NCBI RefSeq assembly: GCF_014859355.1
Contig: NZ_JACUUJ010000003.1
Location: 1 to 64,000, forward strand
Direction of reading: 5' to 3'
Source of the DNA: Yoonia sp.
Lineage (GTDB): Bacteria > Pseudomonadota > Alphaproteobacteria > Rhodobacterales > Rhodobacteraceae
DNA: 64,000 bases
In this document: positions 21,403 through 34,467 of the stretch, in pieces
Layout: each line of letters begins with the position of its first letter
Numbering within the stretch: the stretch's first letter is position 1
The notes under the pieces: model-generated
Told to the model about the DNA's origin: nothing
The model's database searches: none
Seen by the model: the letters and a program-made list of their open reading frames with translations, nothing else
Translations under genes and position numbers: made by a program

Positions 21403-21477
21403 CCTGATCTAACAGATTCAGTGATGCAAGCTGCGGCAAAACGCGCGCGGTTTTTCGCCATCACAAGGGTCCTGGCT

Positions 21478-22140
21478 ATGTTTGACTTCCAGAATGACGT
21501 CGTTGAGTTGTCCAAAGCGGATCGTGCCCACCCTTCGCTTCCGCGGGTCCAAAAGCCTCGGCTGGCGCTTTCAAAGCGGCTGTTTGACGTGGCGGGGGCG
21601 ATTATGCTTTTGCTGCCTTTGGGGGTTTCTGCGCTGCTTCTTTGCTTATTGAACCCGTTATTTAACCGTGGACCATTGTTTTTTGTGCAGGAACGGATGG
21701 GGTTTCGATGCGTTCCTTTTGCAGCCTTCAAATTCCGCACGATGACGGCGCCCAATGGTCATGCCCGTGGGGCGTTCGATGCGCTTGAAACAGACCGGAT
21801 CACCGTCCTGGGCCGGATCATGCGCAAGATGCGTATTGATGAATTGCCGCAAATCATCAACGTGCTGCGCGGCCAGATGAGCCTGATTGGGCCAAGGCCG
21901 GATCATTTCGAGCATGCCTGCGTTTACCTGCGCACGGTGCCTGGCTATTGCGCGCGCCATGACGTTTTGCCGGGCATCAGCGGGTTTGCCCAGACAGAGG
22001 TTGGCTATGTCGATGGGCTGGACGGGGTGCATCGCAAAGTGGCGGCAGATCTTTATTACATCGCCCATGCGACACTGGCGTTTGATCTGTGGATCGCGTG
22101 GCGCACGCTGGTTGTGATCGCCACCCATCGGGGAAGTTAG
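21478..22140 (+). CDS. Initiating sugar-phosphate transferase (ExoY/WbaP type)
   Basis: A bacterial sugar transferase that links the first sugar phosphate to undecaprenyl phosphate at the inner membrane. One hydrophobic segment (VAGAIMLLLPLGVSALLLCLL) is followed by the cytoplasmic catalytic part with FKFRTM and the signature DELPQIINVLRGQMSLIGPRP. I favour ATG 21478 (AAGGG upstream; 220 residues) over the GTG at 21421 used by the track, which has no ribosome site. It opens the plus-strand block that continues into ghsA-ghsB-yjbH-yjbF, and a CtrA-type site lies upstream. The sugar cannot be named; the transferase lacks the extra N-terminal membrane domain of full-length WbaP. Confidence 0.9.
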   Translation: MFDFQNDVVELSKADRAHPSLPRVQKPRLALSKRLFDVAGAIMLLLPLGVSALLLCLLNPLFNRGPLFFVQERMGFRCVPFAAFKFRTMTAPNGHARGAFDALETDRITVLGRIMRKMRIDELPQIINVLRGQMSLIGPRPDHFEHACVYLRTVPGYCARHDVLPGISGFAQTEVGYVDGLDGVHRKVAADLYYIAHATLAFDLWIAWRTLVVIATHRGS

Positions 22141-22220
22141 GGGCCACCGAACGCTGGCCCAAGCGGTTGGAAAGGATAATTGGTGTATCCCTGCACTTTA
22201 ACCAAAGTGAGGTGAACACA

Positions 22221-22478
22221 ATGTCTGACCCGTTTGAATCCGATTACGTCAACCTGACGTCGCCCGCCGTGTCGCATTATGCGGTTGTGCCTTCGGACGT
22301 GACTGACTTGCCGGTGCGTCCGCGCGCACTTTTTGTCAGTATAGGTGGCACTGCGGCGTTACAGGACAAACACGGCACGATCATCAATTATGATCTGGCT
22401 GCAGGTGCAATCCTGAGTATCCGGCCCTTGCGGGTCATGGCAACTGGCACCACTGCCCAGCTTGTTGCGTGGTTCTAG
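22221..22478 (+). CDS. ghsA: GTA-type head spike base protein
   Basis: From ATG 22221 (GAGGTGA upstream) the product has 85 residues. It has the compact pattern of the spike-base family named after R. capsulatus Rcc01079: a short variable N-terminus, LPVRPRALFVSIGGTAALQD, a turn, AGAILSIRPLRVMATGTTAQ, and an aromatic end VAWF. In R. capsulatus this protein (GhsA) with GhsB forms the spikes on the gene transfer agent head that bind the capsule. The stop is one base before the ghsB start. Similar small proteins occur in phages, but no other phage or GTA structural gene is in this window. Start was shortened by 44 residues from the track. Confidence 0.75.
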   Translation: MSDPFESDYVNLTSPAVSHYAVVPSDVTDLPVRPRALFVSIGGTAALQDKHGTIINYDLAAGAILSIRPLRVMATGTTAQLVAWF

Positions 22479-22479
22479 G

Positions 22480-24072
22480 ATGATCGGGCTGGAATTGACT
22501 CCGAGCCAGCTACAGCGTGGAAACCCCGCGCCGCTGGCAGAATATTTTTCCCGCAGCGGCGGGCAGGCAGTCGCCATTGGCGCGGCACCGGGGGGCGGGC
22601 TGTCGGTCTGGACAGAAATCGCGCCGCATGTTGCAGCCTGCCTGCGGCTTGACAATACCGTATCCGGCACGCGTCTGTCATGGCGTGAAACGCTGATCGC
22701 CACGTTGCGCAACATATATCCGGCAGGTGATCTGACGTTGACGGGCAGTTGGGTGCAAATGCAATCTTCTGGTTCTGGTCTTGCGGGCAGTTACACAGGC
22801 AATCGGGCGGTCAGCACCACATCGGCCCAAGCGCAGGCCAGTGTTTTGGTGGGACGCGACGCACCCTATGATCTGTGGGTGCATTACACCGGGCGCGTGG
22901 CGGGTGCCTATTGCCGGGTCGCGATTGACGGCACGCAGACCCTGGTGAATGAAATCGACGATCCCGCTGGCTTGGGTTTCAAGGCGTTTTCGACCCATAG
23001 CGCGATTGACCTGCACCGCCGTCGTTCTGTCAAGGTGGCCAGCGGTCTGACCGGCCAACACACTGTGACGTTGCAGCATGGCGGCGCCGCCCACCCTGGT
23101 GGCAGCACACTGATGATCGAAGCGGTGGCGATCAGTGGCAGCTTGTCAGACCCGCGCATTCTGCCGCCTGTTTGGCAAGCTGGTCATACCTACACGATCG
23201 GGGACGAGGTGCAGTATGGCGGGGTTTATTACGCGGCCCGTGCCACGGGGATTAGCGGCGCTCATCCACCCGCGCATACTGCCGGGGTCGGGTCGGACGG
23301 GGCGCTTGACTGGCGGGCCGATACGCGCAGCACCTACCCCCGTTTTGTGTGCATCGACTATCCGTCAGAACGTGAATATGCGATCCGCTGCGCTGTGGAT
23401 GGTGTGACCACTGAAATTGGGGGCCAGACCCATGGCAACGAGGCGCTGCAAAATCGCAGCGTCATGCTGGATGGCGCGCCCTTTCTGGCCAGGACGACCG
23501 GCAACGGGTTGCGTGTCGGGGCGCATGTGACGATCACGGAAACGACCATTTGGCAAACCAGCAGCGGGCCGCTGGCGGATTGCACCCTGATCCGGCAGAT
23601 AACCCCCGGCACCGTTGCACATGATGTGACAGTCACGGCAACAGGGCCGGTCGCCAGTGTAGATTGGCTCTATATCGGGATGGTCCCGATGGTGCGTTGG
23701 GATGGCAAAAGCGGCACGACGGTGTTTGATACTGTGGCAGTCGGTGATGCACCTGCGGTGATCTTGGCAGATTTTGCAGGGCAGACCCCGCCCAATATCA
23801 TGCACCCCGCAGCCCGCAGTGTCGGGATGTCCGCCAGTTTGGACGACATTGTTCTGCGCTATGGTCTAAGCGCGGGTGCTTTGCCGATAACCGATAATTT
23901 AGTTAATCGAATCGACACCTTTTTACGCCCTAATCTGGAGGCCACGACAGAAGGTGGCAGCCTCGATTGGAAGGCCAAAGCCTATGTTACAGGTGGCGCG
24001 CCGGGGGGGCTGACATTTGGTGCGGGTGATGTGTTGGGTTTTTTCAGCCGGCATGTTTTCGGAACCATTTGA
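22480..24072 (+). CDS. ghsB: GTA-type head spike fibre / capsule-binding protein
   Basis: A 530-residue protein directly after ghsA (TAG-G-ATG). It has no signal peptide. Residues about 90-215 look like a beta-rich jelly-roll, then a segment PPVWQAGHTYTIGDEVQYGG VYYAA resembles small carbohydrate-binding modules (aromatic, G-x-Y, GD.V.Y.G..Y), and the last 270 residues are again beta-rich. This order of base protein then fibre matches ghsA-ghsB (rcc01079-rcc01080) of R. capsulatus, whose product binds the polysaccharide receptor of recipient cells. Here it is embedded in a polysaccharide locus. A capsule-tailoring surface protein unrelated to GTA is the main alternative. Confidence 0.68.
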   Translation: MIGLELTPSQLQRGNPAPLAEYFSRSGGQAVAIGAAPGGGLSVWTEIAPHVAACLRLDNTVSGTRLSWRETLIATLRNIYPAGDLTLTGSWVQMQSSGSGLAGSYTGNRAVSTTSAQAQASVLVGRDAPYDLWVHYTGRVAGAYCRVAIDGTQTLVNEIDDPAGLGFKAFSTHSAIDLHRRRSVKVASGLTGQHTVTLQHGGAAHPGGSTLMIEAVAISGSLSDPRILPPVWQAGHTYTIGDEVQYGGVYYAARATGISGAHPPAHTAGVGSDGALDWRADTRSTYPRFVCIDYPSEREYAIRCAVDGVTTEIGGQTHGNEALQNRSVMLDGAPFLARTTGNGLRVGAHVTITETTIWQTSSGPLADCTLIRQITPGTVAHDVTVTATGPVASVDWLYIGMVPMVRWDGKSGTTVFDTVAVGDAPAVILADFAGQTPPNIMHPAARSVGMSASLDDIVLRYGLSAGALPITDNLVNRIDTFLRPNLEATTEGGSLDWKAKAYVTGGAPGGLTFGAGDVLGFFSRHVFGTI

Positions 24073-24146: not shown

Positions 24147-26171
24147 ATGACGGCAAGGGTGTTGATTTGGCTGGTCGCATGCATTTTACCATGTGGTTTA
24201 GCCGCGCAAGGGGTGGCTTTGCGCTATAACACGTTCGGGGCATCGGGTTTGATCGACATGCCTGTCGCCAGTTCTGCCCCTGATGCAGAACTGGCGTTCA
24301 CCCTGTCCAGCTTTGCCCGGCAAACCCGTAACACCTTGACTTTTCAAGCCAGCCCGCGGCTTTCGGCCAGTTTTCGCTATGCCGCGCTGCGCAAGATCAT
24401 GGGGCAACACGGCGTGATCTATGATCGTATTCTGGATCGCAGCCTTGCGCTTCACTACCGGATTCTGGATGAAACGCGGCGCCGGCCGGCGGTGGCGGTT
24501 GGTGTGGCCGATTTCATTGGCACCGGAATCTATGGCGGGGAATATCTGGTTGCCACAAAAGCTTTGCGCCCCGATCTGGCGGTGACGCTGGGGGTTGGAT
24601 GGGGGCGGTATGCGGGGGTGGGTGGCTTTGCCAACCCGTTGGGGCCTGCGTTTGCCGACCGGCCTGATCGCGTATTTGCACAGGGTGGCACCATCACACG
24701 TAATGCGTTTTTTCGCGGTGATGTCGCCTTTTTTGGCGGGGTTCAGTGGCAACCGACACCCAAGCTGGGGGTAACGCTGGAATATTCCTCTGATCGCTAT
24801 CCCTACGAAGATCCGGCCGCATTTGTCAGGCGCACGCCGTTTAATTTCGGGTTGAATTATACCCTCCGGCCGGGGGTGCAGGTGGCGGCGCAGTATCTTT
24901 ATGGTGCTGAATTCGGGGCACAGCTGACCTTTGCGCTGAACCCCACACGCCCGCCCCACGGCAGTGGATACGCGCGGGGGCCGGCCACGGTGCGCGCGGG
25001 CACACCGCTTGCCCGCGCTTTGGCGGCCGAAGGTCTGGTGCTGACGGGGGCGCAGGTGGTGGATGGGCGGATGGATATTGCCGTTCAAAACACCCGCTTT
25101 CCCGACAGTGCGCAGGCCATCGGGCGGGCGGCGCGGGTTCTGGCACAGATCGCGCCGAAAGGCATAGATGCCTTTGCCATCACGCTTGATGCGCCCGGGC
25201 TTCGGGGGCCGGCTGTCGTTTTGCAACGCAGTGATCTGGCCACGCTGGAGTTTGCGCCAAACGGAACGGCACAGATCGGGCAGCAGGCTGAATTTGCCAC
25301 CGCCGCTGCCGGTTTTGATAACCGCTATCCGGTTTTCGACTGGAGCCTGCGGCCCTATATCACGCCCAATCTGTTTGACCCGGATGACCCGCTGCGCGCT
25401 GATGTCGGCATTGCACTGGATGCCCAATGGCAACTGGCCGCTGGTGTCATTGGCCGCGCAACGGTGCAGCAGCGGCTGGCAGGCAACCTTGACCAGACCG
25501 TGCGAAAGTCTGATTCTGCCTTGCCCCACGTGCGCAGCGATTTCGCGCTTTACGAGCGTGAAGGTAACGGCGACATCGCGCAACTGGCGCTGCATTGGTA
25601 TGCGCAACCGCTTCGCGATGTTGCCACGCGGGTCTCGATCGGCCTTTTTGAGACGATGTATGGCGGCATGTCGAGCGAGGTTCTGTGGTATCCTGGCGGT
25701 CGCGATCTGGCATTTGGGATCGAATTGAACGCCCTGCGCCAGCGCGACTATGACGGTGGATTGGGCTTTCGTGATGATGCGATGACCAGCGGCCACGCCT
25801 CGATTTATTGGCAGGGCAAGGGGGGCTATTCGGCCCAGCTTGATGCGGGGCGTTACCTTGCCGGCGACTGGGGGGGCACGTTGACACTGGCGCGCCAGTT
25901 TCGCAACGGTTGGTCCTTGGGGGCCTTTGCCACGCTGACGGATGTGCCTTTTGAAACCTTTGGTGAAGGATCATTCGACAAGGGGATCGTGCTGACGGTG
26001 CCGCTTTCTTGGGTCAGCGGCCGGCCACGGCGGGATGCGCTGGCCACAACATTGCGCCCGGTCACCCGGGACGGCGGCGCGCGGGTGCAGGTTGATGGAC
26101 GGCTATACCCGCTGACAGCGCCGTTGCGCGCCCGTGCAATCAACGACAGTTGGGGGATGTTCTGGCGATGA
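24147..26171 (+). CDS. yjbH: YjbH-family outer-membrane polysaccharide export protein
   Basis: A 674-residue exported protein: signal peptide (MTARVLIWLVACILPCGLAAQG) followed by a YjbH-type body opening YNTFGASGLIDMPVASSAPD, the characteristic first strand block of that family, and many alternating beta strands up to the C-terminal NDSWGMFWR. YjbH/GfcD proteins are predicted outer-membrane barrels needed for secretion of Yjb-type or group 4 capsule polysaccharide. No Wza-like outer-membrane channel gene is in the locus, so this could be the exit route. It overlaps the next gene, a YjbF-type lipoprotein, by four bases, as in yjb operons. Confidence 0.85.
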   Translation: MTARVLIWLVACILPCGLAAQGVALRYNTFGASGLIDMPVASSAPDAELAFTLSSFARQTRNTLTFQASPRLSASFRYAALRKIMGQHGVIYDRILDRSLALHYRILDETRRRPAVAVGVADFIGTGIYGGEYLVATKALRPDLAVTLGVGWGRYAGVGGFANPLGPAFADRPDRVFAQGGTITRNAFFRGDVAFFGGVQWQPTPKLGVTLEYSSDRYPYEDPAAFVRRTPFNFGLNYTLRPGVQVAAQYLYGAEFGAQLTFALNPTRPPHGSGYARGPATVRAGTPLARALAAEGLVLTGAQVVDGRMDIAVQNTRFPDSAQAIGRAARVLAQIAPKGIDAFAITLDAPGLRGPAVVLQRSDLATLEFAPNGTAQIGQQAEFATAAAGFDNRYPVFDWSLRPYITPNLFDPDDPLRADVGIALDAQWQLAAGVIGRATVQQRLAGNLDQTVRKSDSALPHVRSDFALYEREGNGDIAQLALHWYAQPLRDVATRVSIGLFETMYGGMSSEVLWYPGGRDLAFGIELNALRQRDYDGGLGFRDDAMTSGHASIYWQGKGGYSAQLDAGRYLAGDWGGTLTLARQFRNGWSLGAFATLTDVPFETFGEGSFDKGIVLTVPLSWVSGRPRRDALATTLRPVTRDGGARVQVDGRLYPLTAPLRARAINDSWGMFWR

Positions 26172-26740
26172 GGTGGCTTTTATTCTGTCTGCTTTTTGCG
26201 GCCTGCACCGCCCCGATCCCACCGGCAGCATTGCGTGCCCAATTGACGACAGACCAAATTGCCAGGTTGCAAGTGCCGATGCTGTTTGTCAGTGCGCCAC
26301 AGATAAAGACGGCTGCCACGCTGATCCCTGTTCGGCAAAACGGGCCGGTGCGCATCTGGCAAACGCGCGATGGCGCGCAGATTGCCACGCGCGACGGGCT
26401 TGTCGTGGCCACCCATGGTCTGGGGTTTGATCTGGCAGCCTCTGATCTTGATGGGATTGCGGCTGCCATTGCGGGAGGGCCGGGGGAATACAAACGCACG
26501 CTCAGCCATATCATGGGGGATTTGCGCACATCGGTTCAGCCATATCGCTGCGTGCTTGCGCCTGACCGGTCAAAGCCGCAGAACCCCGCGATCACGGTTT
26601 TGCGCGAAGATTGCCGAGGCCCTGATCCCTTTCGCAACCTGTATCACATTGACGCAAAAGGCAGGCTATTTTGGTCGCAGCAATGGGTGTCGCCCAAGGT
26701 CGGTCACCTGGAAATCGAGGTGATCCGGCCCGATAAATAA
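26168..26740 (+). CDS. yjbF: YjbF/GfcB-family outer-membrane lipoprotein
   Basis: From ATG 26168 the product has 190 residues, with a lipoprotein signal ending in the lipobox LFAAC (cysteine near residue 13). The body contains ITVLREDCRGPDPFRNLYHID and QQWVSPKVGHLEIEVI, matching the YjbF/GfcB group of group 4 capsule lipoproteins. It overlaps the yjbH stop (ATGA), so the pair is co-translated. The role would be in periplasmic or outer-membrane steps of polysaccharide secretion. It is convergent with wzc, whose stop lies 43 bases away, with only a small GCAGG/CCTGC hairpin between them. Confidence 0.82.
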   Translation: MRWLLFCLLFAACTAPIPPAALRAQLTTDQIARLQVPMLFVSAPQIKTAATLIPVRQNGPVRIWQTRDGAQIATRDGLVVATHGLGFDLAASDLDGIAAAIAGGPGEYKRTLSHIMGDLRTSVQPYRCVLAPDRSKPQNPAITVLREDCRGPDPFRNLYHIDAKGRLFWSQQWVSPKVGHLEIEVIRPDK

Positions 26741-26783: not shown

Positions 26784-28766
26784 CTACGCCTGCCCTGCCA
26801 CCTGTGCCAGAATGAGCCCCGTCATCGGTGCCCGCGCCGCGCGCAGAGCATCACACCCCATCAGCACCAGATGCGCCGGTGTCTTGTTCCACTGGACAGT
26901 ATAAATCACGGCATCGGTTTGTTGCACCAAAAGCGCGACATCGGCAAAGGGCAGGACGGGCGGTGCATCCAGAATGATATGATCATATGTCTGGCGCAGG
27001 CCCGTCAACAGCGCAGCAAAGGCGGGTTTGGCCAAAAGATCTGCAGGGTTTTGCGCCGTTGGACGGGCTGCCAGCATATCAAACCCGTTGTGTGTATCGG
27101 GAAAAATCGCTTCTGCGACAGGGGTGTCACCTTGCAAGACGGCGGCCAGCCCCATCTGTGGTACCTGTTGAAAATACTGGTAAAAGCTGCTGTGACGCAT
27201 GTCCGCCTCGATCAACAGAACCGATTTATCAAGCTTTGCCAGTGTATTGGCAAGAGCGATGGCATTTGTCGTCTTGCCTTCGCCATGCAGGGTTGACGTG
27301 AACATGATGACCTGTGGCACCTTGCCGTGATCCGCCAGAAAAAGCGCTGTGCGCAGGCTGCGGGATGCATCTGCCGCCGCGCTGTTGGGATTTTGTTGTA
27401 GCCAGTCCAGCACCTGCTTGCTGGTCCGGCCTGCGATCCGCGGGGTTTGGGCCATCACGGGCAGACCTGTGGCATGGTGCAGGGCTGCGGCGGTGCCAAA
27501 ACCGCTGCGCAAAGCCCCCGCCAAAACCACAAGGCCGCCCCCCCCCAGCGCCCCCAGCAATCCCGCCGCAGCCAGTATCAACACCTTGCGCGGTGCCACA
27601 TAGGTGCCGGGGCTGGCCGTGGCCAGAACGCGGCTGCCCGCTGTTTGCAACCCGCGCCGGGTGCTGGCCTGCTGGAGCCGCGCGAGAAAGGTTTCATAGG
27701 TGACGCGGGTTGCGTCGACCTCGCGGCGCAACTGGTCCAACTGGATCATCCCGGCAGAGCTTTCCGCCAGTTGCCGTTGCAGATTGGTTTGAAACTGTGA
27801 CAGCGCGGCCACCTGACGGGTGTAGCGCGCAACGTCGGCTGACAAACTGTCATAGTATATCGTGCCAGTCTGCGCTGCGATCGGTTTCGCCCGTGTTGTG
27901 CGGTCAAGGGCTGTTTGTGCCCTGTCCAGTTCTGCCTGAGCAGCCGCTAGGCGCCGCGCGGCGTCAGTCGCCTGGCGGTCCAGCGCATCGAAAGTGGTTT
28001 GGTCCTTGACATGGGTTTGCGTGCGCAAATCATTTATCGCGGCTTCGCGCATTTCGAGCTGCCCGCGCAGTTCTGACACTTTGTCGGACAGCCACCGCAG
28101 TGTCATTTCGGTTTCAGCGCGTTTTCCGGCGACCTGATCAGCCAGATAAACATCAGCCAACGTATTGGCGATCTGCGCGGATTTTTCTGGCGTGCTGGTG
28201 ATCGCAGTGATCTGGAAAACATAGGTGTCGCGCAGCGCTGTGGCGGTGACGGCTGCGCGCAGATTCTGCACGGTTTTTTCCTGCACCGCATGGCTGTCGG
28301 GGGTCACGTCAGATTGCCCGGTCAAAAAATTGCGCAACAGATTGCGCACCCCGATCAGCGACAGCGGTGGAATTGGTGTCAGGTAGCGGTTGAATTCAGG
28401 ATCCGCCATCAAGTCGCGTGCGGCCACGACCTGCGTCAGCAGATGCTTCGACTGCAGAATAGCGACTTGCGTGTTGATGTGGGCAGGGTCTGTCCCCTGG
28501 TCTGAAAATATTTGCCCGATCTCTGTGTAGGGAACGCTCGATCTGTTGATTTCCAGCGTTGTCGTCGCGGCATAACGAGGCTGCGCCACCCTGAATGCAT
28601 AAAAGCCCGCCGCCAGAACCGCCAAAAGCGTGCAGATCATGATGACATATTTGCCCAGCCATATGCGACGCAAAAGCCCGCTTATGTCCAATGGGGCTAT
28701 TGGCTGGATATCGGCCACCCCAAACTGCTGAAATGCCGGATGCCCATTCTTGACTTGGTGAAACAT
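26784..28766 (-). CDS. Wzc-like polysaccharide co-polymerase with ATPase domain
   Basis: A 660-residue inner-membrane protein: a Wzz domain with a first membrane segment near residues 40-57, a long periplasmic coiled-coil region (about 200-340), a second membrane segment (VLILAAAGLLGALGGGGLVVL), and a cytoplasmic BY-kinase domain with Walker A LHGEGKTT, A-prime LLIEADMRHS and Walker B IILDAPPVLPF. It controls chain length and export of the polysaccharide. The C-terminus ends MTGLILAQVAGQA with no tyrosine cluster, and I see no adjacent tyrosine phosphatase, so autophosphorylation cycling may not apply. It is divergent from the flippase gene, with a CtrA-type site between. Confidence 0.9.
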   Translation of the reverse strand: MFHQVKNGHPAFQQFGVADIQPIAPLDISGLLRRIWLGKYVIMICTLLAVLAAGFYAFRVAQPRYAATTTLEINRSSVPYTEIGQIFSDQGTDPAHINTQVAILQSKHLLTQVVAARDLMADPEFNRYLTPIPPLSLIGVRNLLRNFLTGQSDVTPDSHAVQEKTVQNLRAAVTATALRDTYVFQITAITSTPEKSAQIANTLADVYLADQVAGKRAETEMTLRWLSDKVSELRGQLEMREAAINDLRTQTHVKDQTTFDALDRQATDAARRLAAAQAELDRAQTALDRTTRAKPIAAQTGTIYYDSLSADVARYTRQVAALSQFQTNLQRQLAESSAGMIQLDQLRREVDATRVTYETFLARLQQASTRRGLQTAGSRVLATASPGTYVAPRKVLILAAAGLLGALGGGGLVVLAGALRSGFGTAAALHHATGLPVMAQTPRIAGRTSKQVLDWLQQNPNSAAADASRSLRTALFLADHGKVPQVIMFTSTLHGEGKTTNAIALANTLAKLDKSVLLIEADMRHSSFYQYFQQVPQMGLAAVLQGDTPVAEAIFPDTHNGFDMLAARPTAQNPADLLAKPAFAALLTGLRQTYDHIILDAPPVLPFADVALLVQQTDAVIYTVQWNKTPAHLVLMGCDALRAARAPMTGLILAQVAGQA

Positions 28767-28884: not shown

Positions 28885-30138
28885 GTGAGCTTTATGCGCA
28901 GATGGCACGTGTCAGGGCTGGTCAAAGGGTTCGCGTGGTCGGCCTTCGTGTGGCGTCTTGGAATCGTGGGCGGGAACTTTGGCATCATGGTGGGGTTGGT
29001 CTGGTGGCTGGGATTGGCCGAATTTGGCAATCTGATGGTGCTTTGGGGGATGGCACTTGTTGCGGGCACGGTCATGTCTGTGGGTGCGCCGGTTCTTATC
29101 TTGCGGGTCATGACCGATGGCACGGGCCTTCGGGCCAGCGGCCTGATCCGGCTGATGTGCCTGTATCCGGTGGCACTGGCGGCGCTGGCGGGGGGGGTGT
29201 TGCATATGATCCTGCCAGGGCCCGCATGGGGGGCAATCCTGTTGACGGGACTGGCTTTCAATGCGTTGCAGTGCCTTGCCAGCGTTTTGCGCGCGCTGGG
29301 CAGTGTGCAAATGTCCATGGCACTGCGTGACGGCGTTCCGCAACTGGCGCTTGGGGCGGCGGCTTGTTTGACGGGCAAGGCCGTTGGCATCTTGATTGTG
29401 GCGGCCTGCGCCATGGGCGGGGTGGGCTTGCTTGTGCTGCTGGTGTGCCTTTTACACCCGGGCCTGCGCACCCGTTTGCGTGCCAGCGGCGACCGGGGCG
29501 CTGTGCGCGGCGGGCTGTGGGCCAATGCGGTGCTGGGGATGGCCACGGCCCAAATCGACATCGTGCTTGCTGGTGGCGTGCTGTCGGCCGACCAGATCGG
29601 GATCTATGCGCTGGTGCGCCGGATTGCCAATCTGGTGGCCCTACCGGTCAGCGTGGCGACGTGGGTCAGTGCCCCGCCGATCGCTGCGGCCTTCGGCGCC
29701 GGCGACCACGTGGCATTGCGCAGGGCAAGTGCTGTGGGAAGTCGCATTGCATTGTTGCCGGGGGGCGCGTTTTTTGCGGTGGCCCTGTTGGCCATGCCGC
29801 TGTGGCCCGGTCTGGCGGATGCGCGCCCGTTGGCGGTGATCCTGCTGAGCGGGGCACTTGTGCAGGTGGGGCTGGCATCCGGTTTCACGGTGGCAACGCT
29901 CTGTGGGTTGGAAAAAAGCGCGGTTCTTGCACGACTCGCGAGCCTTGGCGTGTATCTGGCCATCGCTTTTGGTGCGGGGGGGGCTGCGACAACCACGGGC
30001 AACGCGCTGGCCTATCTGGCGGGCATCATCGCGGGCGGCGCTTTGCTGTGGTGGCTGTTGTGGCTGCGGCTACAAATTGACACGTCTGCCTTCGCAGTGT
30101 GTGCGGGTCCAAGGGGGCAACGATGGAAAATGCCCTGA
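28885..30138 (+). CDS. Wzx-type polysaccharide flippase
   Basis: A 417-residue membrane protein with about twelve hydrophobic segments, from LGIVGGNFGIMVGLVWWLG onward, in the pattern of the oligosaccharide flippase (MOP/MATE-like) superfamily. It would turn the undecaprenyl-linked repeat unit to the periplasmic side. Start is GTG 28885, well placed after GGAGG. The gene overlaps the next one, a Wzy-like polymerase, by 16 bases. Identification rests on membrane topology and neighbours; short conserved motifs are weak in this family. Confidence 0.82.
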   Translation: MSFMRRWHVSGLVKGFAWSAFVWRLGIVGGNFGIMVGLVWWLGLAEFGNLMVLWGMALVAGTVMSVGAPVLILRVMTDGTGLRASGLIRLMCLYPVALAALAGGVLHMILPGPAWGAILLTGLAFNALQCLASVLRALGSVQMSMALRDGVPQLALGAAACLTGKAVGILIVAACAMGGVGLLVLLVCLLHPGLRTRLRASGDRGAVRGGLWANAVLGMATAQIDIVLAGGVLSADQIGIYALVRRIANLVALPVSVATWVSAPPIAAAFGAGDHVALRRASAVGSRIALLPGGAFFAVALLAMPLWPGLADARPLAVILLSGALVQVGLASGFTVATLCGLEKSAVLARLASLGVYLAIAFGAGGAATTTGNALAYLAGIIAGGALLWWLLWLRLQIDTSAFAVCAGPRGQRWKMP

Positions 30139-31472
30139 TCATCGCGCTGGGCCTTGTCTGTGCGGCTGTGCCCTTTGCCCTGGGGCAGCGATACGGGCTG
30201 GTCCGGCTGGTGTCCCCGATGCATCTGCTGGGCTGGTTTTGCCTGTTCGGTTTCACAACAAAGGCCGTGGTCTATGCCATGGCGCCGCAGTTCGCGTTTT
30301 ACCGTCGCTTTGTCGATAACCCCTGGGGTGATTTGCTGGGCGCGCTGTATCTGGCGCTGTTTATTCTGGCGATTTGTCTGGGGTATCGGCTGGCTTGTGC
30401 GCCGGTGCGCCAGCCCGACAATATACAAGCCGCGCGGATAATTGCCACGGGTATCGCGCGGCGCGGGTGGCTGTTCGGGCTGGCGTTCGGGGTTGCAGCG
30501 GCCACGGCGCTGATGATCCTGCGGGCACGCGGCGCGACACTCGATCTTGATTTGCTGGCGGGCGTCAACAGCGCGAAGCAGATCAACGTGGGTGCGAATG
30601 GCGTGGGCAGCACGCTGGCCGGGCTGAAAACCCTGTTTATTGTGCCCAAATGCGCCTTTGTTCTGCTGCTTGCGCATGGCGTCGCGGCGCGGGCGCGGCT
30701 GGCGCTGGTGCAAGCGGCGGCGCTGGCGGTGCTGCTGTTGGGGATCGCGCTGATCTCGGGCGACCGGTTTGAACTGGTGGAAATGCTGATCTATGCGCTG
30801 GCCACTTCTCTCATGCTGGGCGGGCGGATCAGCGGGCGCGCAGCGGTCTGGCTGGTGGGCGTAGGGGCAGTGATTGTCGCCCTGTCGGTCTATATGACCG
30901 AACTGCGGCTGGGGCAGGGGGGCGGTTTTGGCCTGTTGGCGTCACAGTTGGTTGGTTCGACCTATTTTCTGGATCTGAACGCGGCCATCATGATCACCGA
31001 CCGGATGGAACCGGACCAGATGATGCTGGGGCAAAGCTATTTCTGGTGGCTTTTCGGCTGGGTGCCGCGCGCCATCTGGGTCGATAAACCCGCCGTTGAT
31101 CTGGGCGTGTTTTTCAAGCGTGACCTGATGGGGGTTTACACCGGGGGCGGCTATAATGTCACCGGCCCGGGCGAGGCGTTCATCAATTTCGGATGGGGCG
31201 GGGTTGGCGTAGGCCTTGTGCTGGGCTGGCTTTACCGCAAGGGCGAGGCCGCGGTGCTGGCGGCGCGCGCCACGCTGCGCCATGGCGCGTTTCTGTTATA
31301 TCCGCTGCTGTTTTACCCCTTTGTGCAGGCGACGCTGCAATCATCATTCAGTGCCTTCATTGTTCTGGCGGTTGCGCAGTTTGTCATGATTGCCGCGATG
31401 ATCGCGATTTTTGTGCCGCGTTATGCGGTGAAGGCGCGGCTTTATCACAGGGGGGCGGCCGATGCTGCTTAA
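30123..31472 (+). CDS. Wzy-like polysaccharide polymerase
   Basis: A 449-residue polytopic membrane protein with ten or more hydrophobic segments and a longer periplasmic loop around [20 protein letters not shown], followed by [18 protein letters not shown] and [13 protein letters not shown], features seen in oligosaccharide repeat-unit polymerases (OrfW/Wzy-like). It would join flipped repeat units in the periplasm. Start at ATG 30123 is preceded by AAGGGGGCAACG and lies inside the flippase gene. It overlaps the following acyltransferase gene by 11 bases. Confidence 0.8.
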
Positions 31473-32031
31473 ATCAATCGACGGTGCGGTGCGGATCGGG
31501 GGCGCTGTCTGGCGCAGGGTTGGCCTGTGGGCCGCAACGGTGCTGCACCGCGCCGTGCTGGCGCGTGTCGGGCCAGGGTGCCGGTTTCAGGCCGGTGTGC
31601 ATTTTGCCGCCCCCAACGCGGTGCAGATCGGCGCAAACGGCTATTTCTGGCGCGGTTGCACGGCCCTGTCGGAACTGCCGGGGGGCCGTCTGTTGATTGG
31701 TGACGGGGTGCAGATCAACCGTGATGTGCATCTGGATATCACGGGCGGTTTGCAGATCGGTGACAGGGCGCTGATTTCCGAAGACGTCGTGATCTATACC
31801 CATGATCACGGGTTGGACCCGCGCAGCGCGCCCCTGCCAATTCCTAAGGTGATCGGCCCCGATGTCTGGATCGGGATGCGCGCGGTAATTCTGCCGCAGT
31901 GCCGCCGGATCGGGCAGGGTGCTGTGATCGCCGCCGGTGCCATCGTCACGCGCGATGTGCCCGCGGGGGCTATCGTTGCGGGCAACCCTGCGCGGGTCAT
32001 CGGCCAGACCAACCGGCAGGAGGCCGCATGA
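31462..32031 (+). CDS. Left-handed beta-helix acyltransferase (first copy)
   Basis: A 189-residue protein with hexapeptide repeats through its middle and end (for example [76 protein letters not shown]). The HDH region and the closing NPARVIG are typical of sugar O-acetyltransferases of the WcaF/Maa/NodL kind. It would decorate a sugar of the repeat unit, probably with acetyl. It overlaps the polymerase gene upstream and the GT4 gene downstream (ATGA), so it is part of one translationally coupled run. Confidence 0.85.
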
Positions 32032-33158
32032 ACATCCTGCATGTCAGCCCCAGTTTTTACCCTGCGACTGCTTGGGGTGGGCCGATATTTTCAACCAAGA
32101 CGATTTGCGACGGGATCGCCGCACGCCCCGATATGGCGTTGCGCGTGCTGACAACAGATGCCGCCAGCCCGACAGGGCCGGGCCGCGTGACCCCAGTGCC
32201 TTTGCCCTATCCGGTGCATTTTGCGCGCCGTGTCGCGGGGGGCAGTATCGCGCCGGGGCTGTTCGCGCGATTGCCGCAGGCCATCGCATGGGCCGATGTG
32301 GTGCATCTGACGGCAACCTACAGTTTCCCGACCTTGCCTGTGCTGGCGCTGGCGCGGATCATCGGGCGGCCTTTGGTGTGGTCGCCGCGCGGGGCGTTGC
32401 AGGCCACCCAGACATGGGATGCGGCCCCGCGCAAAGCCATGAAACGCAGGTTCGAAACGCTGGCGCAAATAATCCGACCCGATGCAACTGTTTTGCATGT
32501 CACAGCCCCGTCCGAGGCGCGTGACAGCGTGGCCCGCCTGACCGGCATTCAAACCGCCTGCATTCCCAACTGTGTGACGATCCCGGCGCTTATGCCACAG
32601 GTCAAAACGGGGGCTGCGCGGCTGATGTATATCGGGCGGCTGCACCCCAAAAAGGGGTTAGAGCGTTTGTTCGACGCGATGGCGGCCCTGCCCGACCGTG
32701 TGTGCCTTGATGTTTACGGCACCGGCGATGCGGCCTATCTGGCCGGTTTGCAGGCCCACGCTGTCGCATCCGCCGGTCGCATCCGTCTGCACGGCCATGT
32801 CGATGGTTTTGCGAAAACAGCAGCTTTTGCGCGCGCGGACCTTTGCGTTTTTCCCAGCTATTCGGAAAATTTCGGGATTGTCGTGGCCGAGGCGCTGGCC
32901 CATGGCGTGCCCGTCGTGACGACCACCGCAACCCCGTGGGCGGCGCTTGACAGCATGGGTTGCGGGCGCTGTGTCGATCTGGACCGCGTGTCACTGGCGC
33001 AAGCGATCACGGTAATGTTGCAAGACGATCTGACCGCGATGGGTGCGGCAGGGCGGGCATGGATGGCGCGTGATTTTTCCCCTGATGCGATGACCGATGC
33101 CTTTGCGGCGCTTTATCACAGGCTGGCGCAGGGACGCGCGGCGATGGTGCCCGCATGA
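32028..33158 (+). CDS. Glycosyltransferase family 4 protein
   Basis: A 376-residue GT-B enzyme. The N-terminal half begins [19 protein letters not shown]; the C-terminal half has the nucleotide-sugar region with [38 protein letters not shown] and the E-x7-E motif in [21 protein letters not shown]. It adds one sugar, with retention, to the lipid-linked repeat unit at the cytoplasmic face. ATG 32028 overlaps the preceding stop; the 43 residues before it in the track ORF are an out-of-gene extension. The sugar donor cannot be read from the sequence. Confidence 0.9.
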
Positions 33159-33706
33159 CGATGCAGCTGGATGTCAGCGCCAACCGCGCCGCCCGCAAAT
33201 ACAGCCGCCGCACGCAGGTCGCGCGCGTGCTTTGGGCGTTGTGCCTGCCGCTGTTCCGGTTCAGCCCGCGCCCGATGTGGGGCTGGCGCGCGTGGCTGTT
33301 GCGCCGGTTCGGGGCGCAGGTGGGGCGTGGGGCGCATCTGCATCCGACGGTGCGCATCCTGATGCCGTGGAACCTGTCAATCGGTGATCAGGTGACGGTC
33401 GGGGACAGCGCGATCCTTTATGCGTTGGGGGCGATCACGATCTGCGACAGGGCCACGGTGTCGCAATACGTGCACTTGTGCGCGGGCACCCATGACATCC
33501 GTGATCCGGCGCGGACCTTGTGCAAACCGCCCATCACCATCGGGCCGGATGCCTGGGTTTGTGCCGATGCCTTTGTCGGGCCGGGCGTGCGGATCGGCGC
33601 GGGGGCGATCCTGGGTGCGCGAGCGGTGGCGATGCGTGATCTGCCGCCGCGCAGTACCGGCGTTGGCAACCCGATGCAGATTATCATCGGAAAGGAAAAG
33701 CGATGA
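33155..33706 (+). CDS. WcaF-like acetyltransferase (second beta-helix copy)
   Basis: A 183-residue acyltransferase with the WcaF-type N-terminal region (WALCLPLFRFSPRPMWGWRAWLLRRFGA) followed by hexapeptide-repeat strands (LSIGDQVTVGDSAILY, ITICDRATVSQYVHLCAGTHD, ITIGPDAWVCADAFVGPGVRIG). The HLCAGTHD segment corresponds to the active-site histidine region of putative colanic acid acetyltransferases. It starts inside the GT4 stop (ATGA) and overlaps the next glycosyltransferase by four bases. With the first copy this predicts a doubly acylated repeat unit. Confidence 0.88.
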   Translation: MTMQLDVSANRAARKYSRRTQVARVLWALCLPLFRFSPRPMWGWRAWLLRRFGAQVGRGAHLHPTVRILMPWNLSIGDQVTVGDSAILYALGAITICDRATVSQYVHLCAGTHDIRDPARTLCKPPITIGPDAWVCADAFVGPGVRIGAGAILGARAVAMRDLPPRSTGVGNPMQIIIGKEKR

Positions 33707-34467
33707 AAATTTCCGTGGTCACGGCTGTTTACAATGGTGGCGATACGCTGCCCCGCGCGGTGGACAGCCTGCGCCGCCAGACCCATGCGCATGTCGAACA
33801 TGTGGTGCAGGATGGCGGGTCTACCGATGGCACGCTGGCTTGGCTGGCAGCAAACGGACACCACGGCATGGCGCTGGTGTCGGCCCCCGATGCAGGGATC
33901 TATGATGCGATCAACGCGGGCATTGCGCGGGCTTCGGGCGATGTCATCGGCCTGCTGCATGCTGATGACTTTCTGGCGGATAACGCCGTGCTGGCCCGTG
34001 TCGCTGCCGCACTGGCGGATCCAGCCATCGACGGGGTTTACGGTGATCTGCAATATGTCGCGCGCGATGACGATACCCGCGTGATCCGCCATTGGTCGGC
34101 GGGGGTTTACACGCCGCAGCGGCTGCGCCGTGGCTGGATGCCGCCGCACCCCACGCTTTACTTGCGCCGCAAGGTGTTTGAGCGCTGGGGGCTTTATGAT
34201 ACCAGCTATCGGATTGCGGGCGATTATGACGGGATGCTGCGCTGGCTGACCAAAGGGCAAGTGCGGCTGGCCTATATCCCGCATGTGATGGTGCGGATGC
34301 GGCTGGGGGGCGCCAGCAACCGGTCGCTGGCCCAGATGCTGCACAAAAGCCGCGAGGATTACCGCGCGATCCGCACCCATGGAGTTGGCGGTGTCGGCAC
34401 GCTGGTGACCAAGAACCTGTCGAAATTGCCGCAGTTTATCGCGCGGGGTGCGGGGCTCAGGTTTTGA
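33703..34467 (+). CDS. Glycosyltransferase family 2 protein
   Basis: A 254-residue GT-A enzyme. The start KISVVTAVYNGGDTLPRAVDSL and EHVVQDGGSTDGTLAWL are the classic GT2 nucleotide-binding strands, and LLHADDFLADNAVL supplies the DxD-like metal site (ADD). The family resembles WcaA/WcaE-type enzymes of colanic acid-like loci. It is the last gene of the plus-strand polysaccharide run and overlaps the convergent enolase-superfamily gene by 11 bases, so the two transcripts end into each other with no terminator visible between them. Confidence 0.9.
   Translation: MKISVVTAVYNGGDTLPRAVDSLRRQTHAHVEHVVQDGGSTDGTLAWLAANGHHGMALVSAPDAGIYDAINAGIARASGDVIGLLHADDFLADNAVLARVAAALADPAIDGVYGDLQYVARDDDTRVIRHWSAGVYTPQRLRRGWMPPHPTLYLRRKVFERWGLYDTSYRIAGDYDGMLRWLTKGQVRLAYIPHVMVRMRLGGASNRSLAQMLHKSREDYRAIRTHGVGGVGTLVTKNLSKLPQFIARGAGLRF

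Follow-up and report, generated by a model that had tools for sequence, protein, structure and literature searches.

Gene transfer agent head-spike genes are conserved within a Wzx/Wzy-type exopolysaccharide locus of Yoonia, and the predicted fibre co-varies with the polymerase

The window analysed here, a 64,000-nucleotide stretch of DNA (contig C62), comes from a Yoonia genome of 2.98 Mb that is 99.74% complete. It contains one Wzx/Wzy-type exopolysaccharide locus, in which the spike genes ghsA and ghsB lie on the plus strand, separated by one base. An earlier note on this DNA had placed one ghsA-like gene (85 aa) and one ghsB-like gene (530 aa) on the same strand between the initiating sugar-phosphate transferase gene and yjbH, and the coordinates confirm this arrangement:

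21424–22140, plus strand: initiating sugar-phosphate transferase (Bac_transf; PF02397, 164 bits), adjoining ghsA upstream in most Yoonia loci
22148–22174, plus strand: conserved non-coding element, possible promoter or operator; consensus CGNACGNTGGNCNAAGNGGTTGGTAAG, from 37 aligned upstream regions
22221–22478, plus strand: ghsA, gene transfer agent (GTA) head-spike base protein, 85 aa (NF048002; 6tb9)
22480–24072, plus strand: ghsB, predicted head-spike fibre, 530 aa, with plug-like N-terminus and predicted fold
22480–22497, plus strand: MIGLEL codons, predicted plug docking in the GhsA pentamer (hydrophobic-x-hydrophobic pattern)
22678–23154, plus strand: GhsB residues ~67–225, beta domain, probably CBM35/36-like (Foldseek; putative boundaries)
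23173–23256, plus strand: GhsB residues 232–259, CBM5/12-like module (PF02839, 22.2 bits, under the 26.2 cut-off; 7eea)
24147–26171, plus strand: yjbH, exopolysaccharide outer-membrane protein (PF06082, 623 bits), absent from many congeners
26168–26740, plus strand: yjbF/gfcB lipoprotein (PF11102, 80 bits)
26784–28766, minus strand: wzc-type chain-length/tyrosine kinase (PF02706, PF13614; best NCBIfam match eps_transp_fam)
28909–30138, plus strand: putative wzx-type flippase, labelled by position and hydrophobicity; no family match in Pfam or NCBIfam
30123–31472, plus strand: wzy, oligosaccharide repeat unit polymerase (TIGR04370, 59 bits against a cut-off of 40)
31462–32031, plus strand: hexapeptide acyltransferase (PF00132)
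32028–33158, plus strand: glycosyltransferase group 1, GT4-like (PF13692, 81 bits)
33155–33706, plus strand: second hexapeptide acyltransferase (PF00132)
33703–34467, plus strand: glycosyltransferase family 2 (PF00535, 76 bits)

The conserved element sits between the transferase gene and ghsA. When 14 genomes were searched with its pattern, it was found upstream of ghsA in six, and elsewhere there was one match with three mismatches; at the stringency used, the element was rejected as a shared GTA promoter motif. The CtrA half-site TTAA is present in 14 of the 37 ghsA upstream regions, against about 8 expected, which is a modest enrichment. In several Yoonia species, one calcineurin-like metallophosphoesterase gene is located between the transferase gene and ghsA (L071:9136–9849, L080:10338–11072, L090:9120–9776, L092:4113–4847, L094:9078–9812, L097:10363–11076 and others); similar phosphoesterases are annotated in plasmid polysaccharide loci that carry spike genes.

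By sequence, the 85-residue protein is the GTA head-spike base protein GhsA. It matches NF048002, the Rcc01079 spike-base family, over profile positions 1–84 of 85 with 89 bits (E 1.9e-25; curated cut-off 28 bits), its residues 3–84 match 6tb9, the base protein of RcGTA of solved structure (E 2.7e-23), and it is the sole copy in the genome above the family cut-off. The base protein thus belongs to a GTA spike family, as the earlier note had proposed. The second protein behaved differently: no family match spans the whole length of GhsB, none was obtained in NCBIfam, and alone against the PDB it gave chance matches only. The pair does not consist of chance open reading frames, given the GhsA matches and GhsB relatives that are intact in 32 congeners (53–62% identity).

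Position and N-terminus point to GhsB as the fibre. Its gene lies directly 3′ of ghsA on the same strand, with gaps of 1–3 bases in the listed Yoonia block loci. In RcGhsB, the peptide IALGLGLGL fits the base pentamer (PMC7296036); the GhsB start MIGLEL has the same hydrophobic-x-hydrophobic pattern and is predicted to dock as a plug. The plug motif occurs in 74 of 101 open reading frames after ghsA versus 144 of 1334 control proteins, and several plug-bearing fibres share little except the N-terminal start. The AlphaFold model of GhsB, built from 30 aligned sequences, has a mean pLDDT of 88.5, with residues 1–16 disordered. With Foldseek, the model matched CBM35 2w1w (TM 0.73 by target length, ~150 columns), and residues 232–259 gave one profile match to the receptor-binding domain of cyanophage tailspike 7eea (E 9e-5).

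Some loci carry other proteins at the GhsB position. Those of L248, L249, L254, L138 and L173 have SASA or GDSL carbohydrate-esterase domains, and they possibly remove acyl groups from the bound coat. The ghsB frames are shortened or split in three Yoonia loci (L073, L088 and L100), and one ghsA contains a stop (G428 C2:1575801–1576051). In two of the genomes with broken ghsB, G397 and G429, the megatron is also incomplete.

In Rhodobacter capsulatus, the capsule to which the head fibre binds is made by the neighbouring genes (PMC10218006); GhsA and GhsB were found in purified RcGTA particles (PMC6854486). They are encoded by rcc01079 and rcc01080, next to the capsule genes rcc01081–01086 (PMC10218006, PMC7296036). 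Like the R. capsulatus spikes, the Yoonia pair has the same base family, a plug-type fibre N-terminus, tandem genes outside the main GTA cluster and polysaccharide biosynthesis genes adjoining the spike genes. Different from R. capsulatus, where GhsB is 325 aa, GhsB here is 530 aa and contains CBM-like modules, and the locus is of the Wzx/Wzy type with YjbH/YjbF. In the PDB and NCBIfam searches, the GhsB of the window has no detectable similarity to RcGhsB.

The earlier note had the remainder of the GTA cluster lying outside the window, and we located it on contig C41 (L083) of the same genome. This near-complete RcGTA-type cluster, on another contig than the spikes, encodes the portal, capsid, tail protein, tape measure, distal tail protein, hub, peptidase and full megatron (1867 bits); C41 ends inside the presumed terminase, which is predicted by position. 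The genome therefore does contain a GTA capsid cluster. Megatrons vary in the genus. In G443, G441, G427, G418 and G419, the match starts at about profile position 640–667 despite open frames of 636–839 aa, the N-terminal half being diverged or missing. G449 and G416 have extra full-length megatrons with ~47% identity to that of the window genome, which suggests further GTA-like or phage clusters.

Conservation of the locus was analyzed in a genus sample of 57 genomes, with named members of Yoonia and Loktanella, from which 39 congener loci were fetched. In 36 of the 39, one block is kept in the same order: transferase, ghsA, ghsB, Wzc, usually Wzx, Wzy and glycosyltransferases, with yjbH/yjbF variably present. 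The other three (L064–L066) have a different ghsA-ghsB pair, which in L064 and L065 adjoins the transferase and Wzc-like genes of another polysaccharide locus. Among the 57 genomes, 41 have both Wzy and ghsA, five have ghsA only, none has Wzy only and 11 have neither (Fisher P 2e-8, relatedness ignored); the five ghsA-only genomes comprise three with the different pair and two in which ghsA is on a small contig. A full megatron was found in 7 of the 11 genomes that lack both ghsA and Wzy, although these 11 may represent few independent losses. Taken together with the co-occurrence of Wzy and ghsA, this indicates that the presence of the spikes is tied more closely to the polysaccharide locus than to the particle cluster.

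In addition to presence and absence, we compared protein distances across up to 36 Yoonia loci by Mantel permutations, which treat species as exchangeable, so that shared ancestry can inflate the correlations (rho) given here. The distances of GhsB correlate best with those of Wzy (0.76, the highest in the locus), followed by Wzc (0.62), Wzx (0.55) and GT4 (0.55); the values are 0.29–0.33 for GhsA and 0.26–0.32 for the adjacent transferase, and those for flanking genes (0.16–0.27) are not significant. GhsB is also the best-correlated partner of Wzy. When Wzc is controlled for, the partial correlation between GhsB and Wzy is 0.61, and it is 0.46 when Wzx is added; controlling for GhsA plus the adjacent transferase gives 0.70, and controlling for a flanking gene gives 0.79. 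The sounder part of this evidence is how the genes rank against one another within the same species: in shared species sets, Wzy ranks above every other gene in 93–100% of subsamples, and the CBM35-like region of GhsB has the highest value (0.67). GhsA is short and its distances are therefore noisy. This reduces the contrast without abolishing it, because Wzy sampled at 150 columns still reaches 0.61 versus 0.30 for the transferase. Co-variation of spike and glycan alleles, a check that the earlier note had called for, is therefore present.

These correlations bear on the strongest alternative, in which the pair are true GTA spikes, and both linkage and co-variation come from co-transfer of one accessory block without any matching between spike and receptor. 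Block transfer clearly occurs, as the surroundings of the locus vary and it is also present on plasmids. With megatron identity to the window used in place of a core-gene species tree, the identity of GhsB to the window copy tracks that of Wzy (0.60) but not that of the megatron (0.16), and Wzy does not track the megatron either (-0.07). However, pure block transfer predicts that correlation decays with distance, whereas GhsB tracks Wzy, ~6 kb away, over its neighbours GhsA and the transferase, and the top rank of Wzy holds in 93–100% of the subsamples. Spikes also recur across genera in polysaccharide loci of differing content. We therefore regard block transfer alone as an unlikely, though still serious, explanation.

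The recurrence was surveyed in 397 genomes of the family, with nearly every genus represented by a single genome. The megatron is present in 360 of them and ghsA in 139; five of these 139 have no detected megatron, and in Yoonia the same holds for G411 and G435, so ghsA is not strictly tied to the GTA. With the expectation calculated from each genome's own gene number and genome size, PF02397 lies within 10 kb of ghsA in 14 of 70 other ghsA-positive genera versus 0.99 expected, and within 20 kb in 24 of 70 versus 1.97 expected (Poisson P 3e-18). The linkage predicted for relatives by the earlier note thus holds in the congeners and recurs near PF02397 in other genera. Within 10 kb, at least two recognised core polysaccharide genes are present in 54 of 100 family loci and none in 31, recognition being restricted to families that could be labelled; the polysaccharide gene content differs between ghsA loci of different genera.

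A protein search also placed GhsA on 18 plasmids, and all the records that were opened are from Rhodobacterales. Polysaccharide genes are beside ghsA on 14 of 16 inspected Rhodobacterales plasmids; on the other two, ghsA is either close to where the record begins or in a region with no polysaccharide genes. The ghsA-ghsB pair often directly follows the plasmid partition genes. On Marinovum algicola pMaD9 and Tritonibacter mobilis p4, for example, it is beside YjbH/YjbF, Wzc, flippase and glycosyltransferase genes. Different from the window locus, these loci are extrachromosomal and have other GhsB types, annotated as hypothetical proteins or esterases. Near-complete GTA capsid matches were found on five plasmid records, all large Paracoccus replicons and none with ghsA.

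Carriage of ghsA without the megatron in some genomes would also suit a second alternative, that the pair is a prophage or prophage remnant and decorates a phage rather than the GTA. GhsA-like base proteins are encoded within the genomes of Rhodobacter phages RcapNL (52% identity), RcapMu and RcWaterboi (~35%), and in RcapNL the open reading frame after the ghsA-like gene has a plug-like start, forming a ghsA-ghsB-like pair. The GhsB body resembles the tail fibre of Pseudoalteromonas phage J2-1, the closest viral fold (TM 0.67), which aligns with residues 57–473 at 27% identity (E 2e-15). But the RcapNL fibre frame (~144 aa) is unrelated to GhsB in length or content, and the J2-1 fibre is encoded in a 120-kb phage genome and not beside ghsA. 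Neither the window nor the Yoonia loci have phage genes beside the pair, one peptide-pattern search of 2.9 million viral contigs found no GhsB relatives, and across the genus the pair occurs as a single copy at one conserved place, which makes a prophage origin very improbable. Still less probable is a role unrelated to particles, in which GhsB would serve the exopolysaccharide machinery as an exported adhesin or structural protein, with GhsA as its partner; the constant company of polysaccharide genes and the CBM-like modules would fit this, but GhsA shares its family with a virion protein of solved structure, and GhsB starts with the plug motif and has no obvious signal peptide.

The explanation that we favour, and consider probable, is that the GTA head spikes are inherited together with the Wzx/Wzy locus that probably produces their receptor, which keeps particle and receptor matched. 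In this model, ghsA and ghsB would encode the head spikes of the host's own RcGTA-type GTA: each capsid vertex would carry five GhsA subunits that grip a single GhsB at its N-terminal plug, and the CBM-like body of GhsB would bind polysaccharide on recipient cells. The Wzx/Wzy locus that carries the spike genes would probably make the bound polysaccharide, and co-inheritance of the two would keep particle and receptor matched, presumably under selection for matching, so that gene transfer would go mainly to cells wearing the same coat. The earlier note had linked the particle adhesin to the synthesis of its probable receptor. The linkage is strengthened by its conservation and by the co-variation; the receptor role we still infer.

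The linkage between spike and capsule genes in R. capsulatus is already published (PMC10218006), and the genus-wide conservation and the co-variation with Wzy go beyond that case. New here are the recurrence in different loci and genera, the presence on plasmids and the link to the polymerase Wzy; in the literature searched, with Hynes 2016 and Brimacombe 2013 outside its scope, we found no report of these three and no survey of spike linkage in other genera. A wider reading, which we offer tentatively and lean slightly against as a whole, is that the Rhodobacterales GTA spike is inherited with the polysaccharide locus, on chromosome or plasmid, rather than with the particle, that it co-evolves with the polymerase, and that the two form a greenbeard-like linkage group of signal and recogniser. 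If true, such linkage would direct DNA from producers that lyse to cells with the same locus. How GTAs are maintained despite lysis of the producers is an open question (PMC6209664). Were spike and receptor passed on together, cells with the same locus would gain most of the benefit of transfer, and a swap of the locus would redirect gene flow. The plasmid-borne spike genes, which are now listed as hypothetical proteins or esterases, may determine the partners of DNA exchange in Rhodobacterales biofilms, and one spike that changes in step with the coat polymerase could limit DNA sharing to cells with matching coats.
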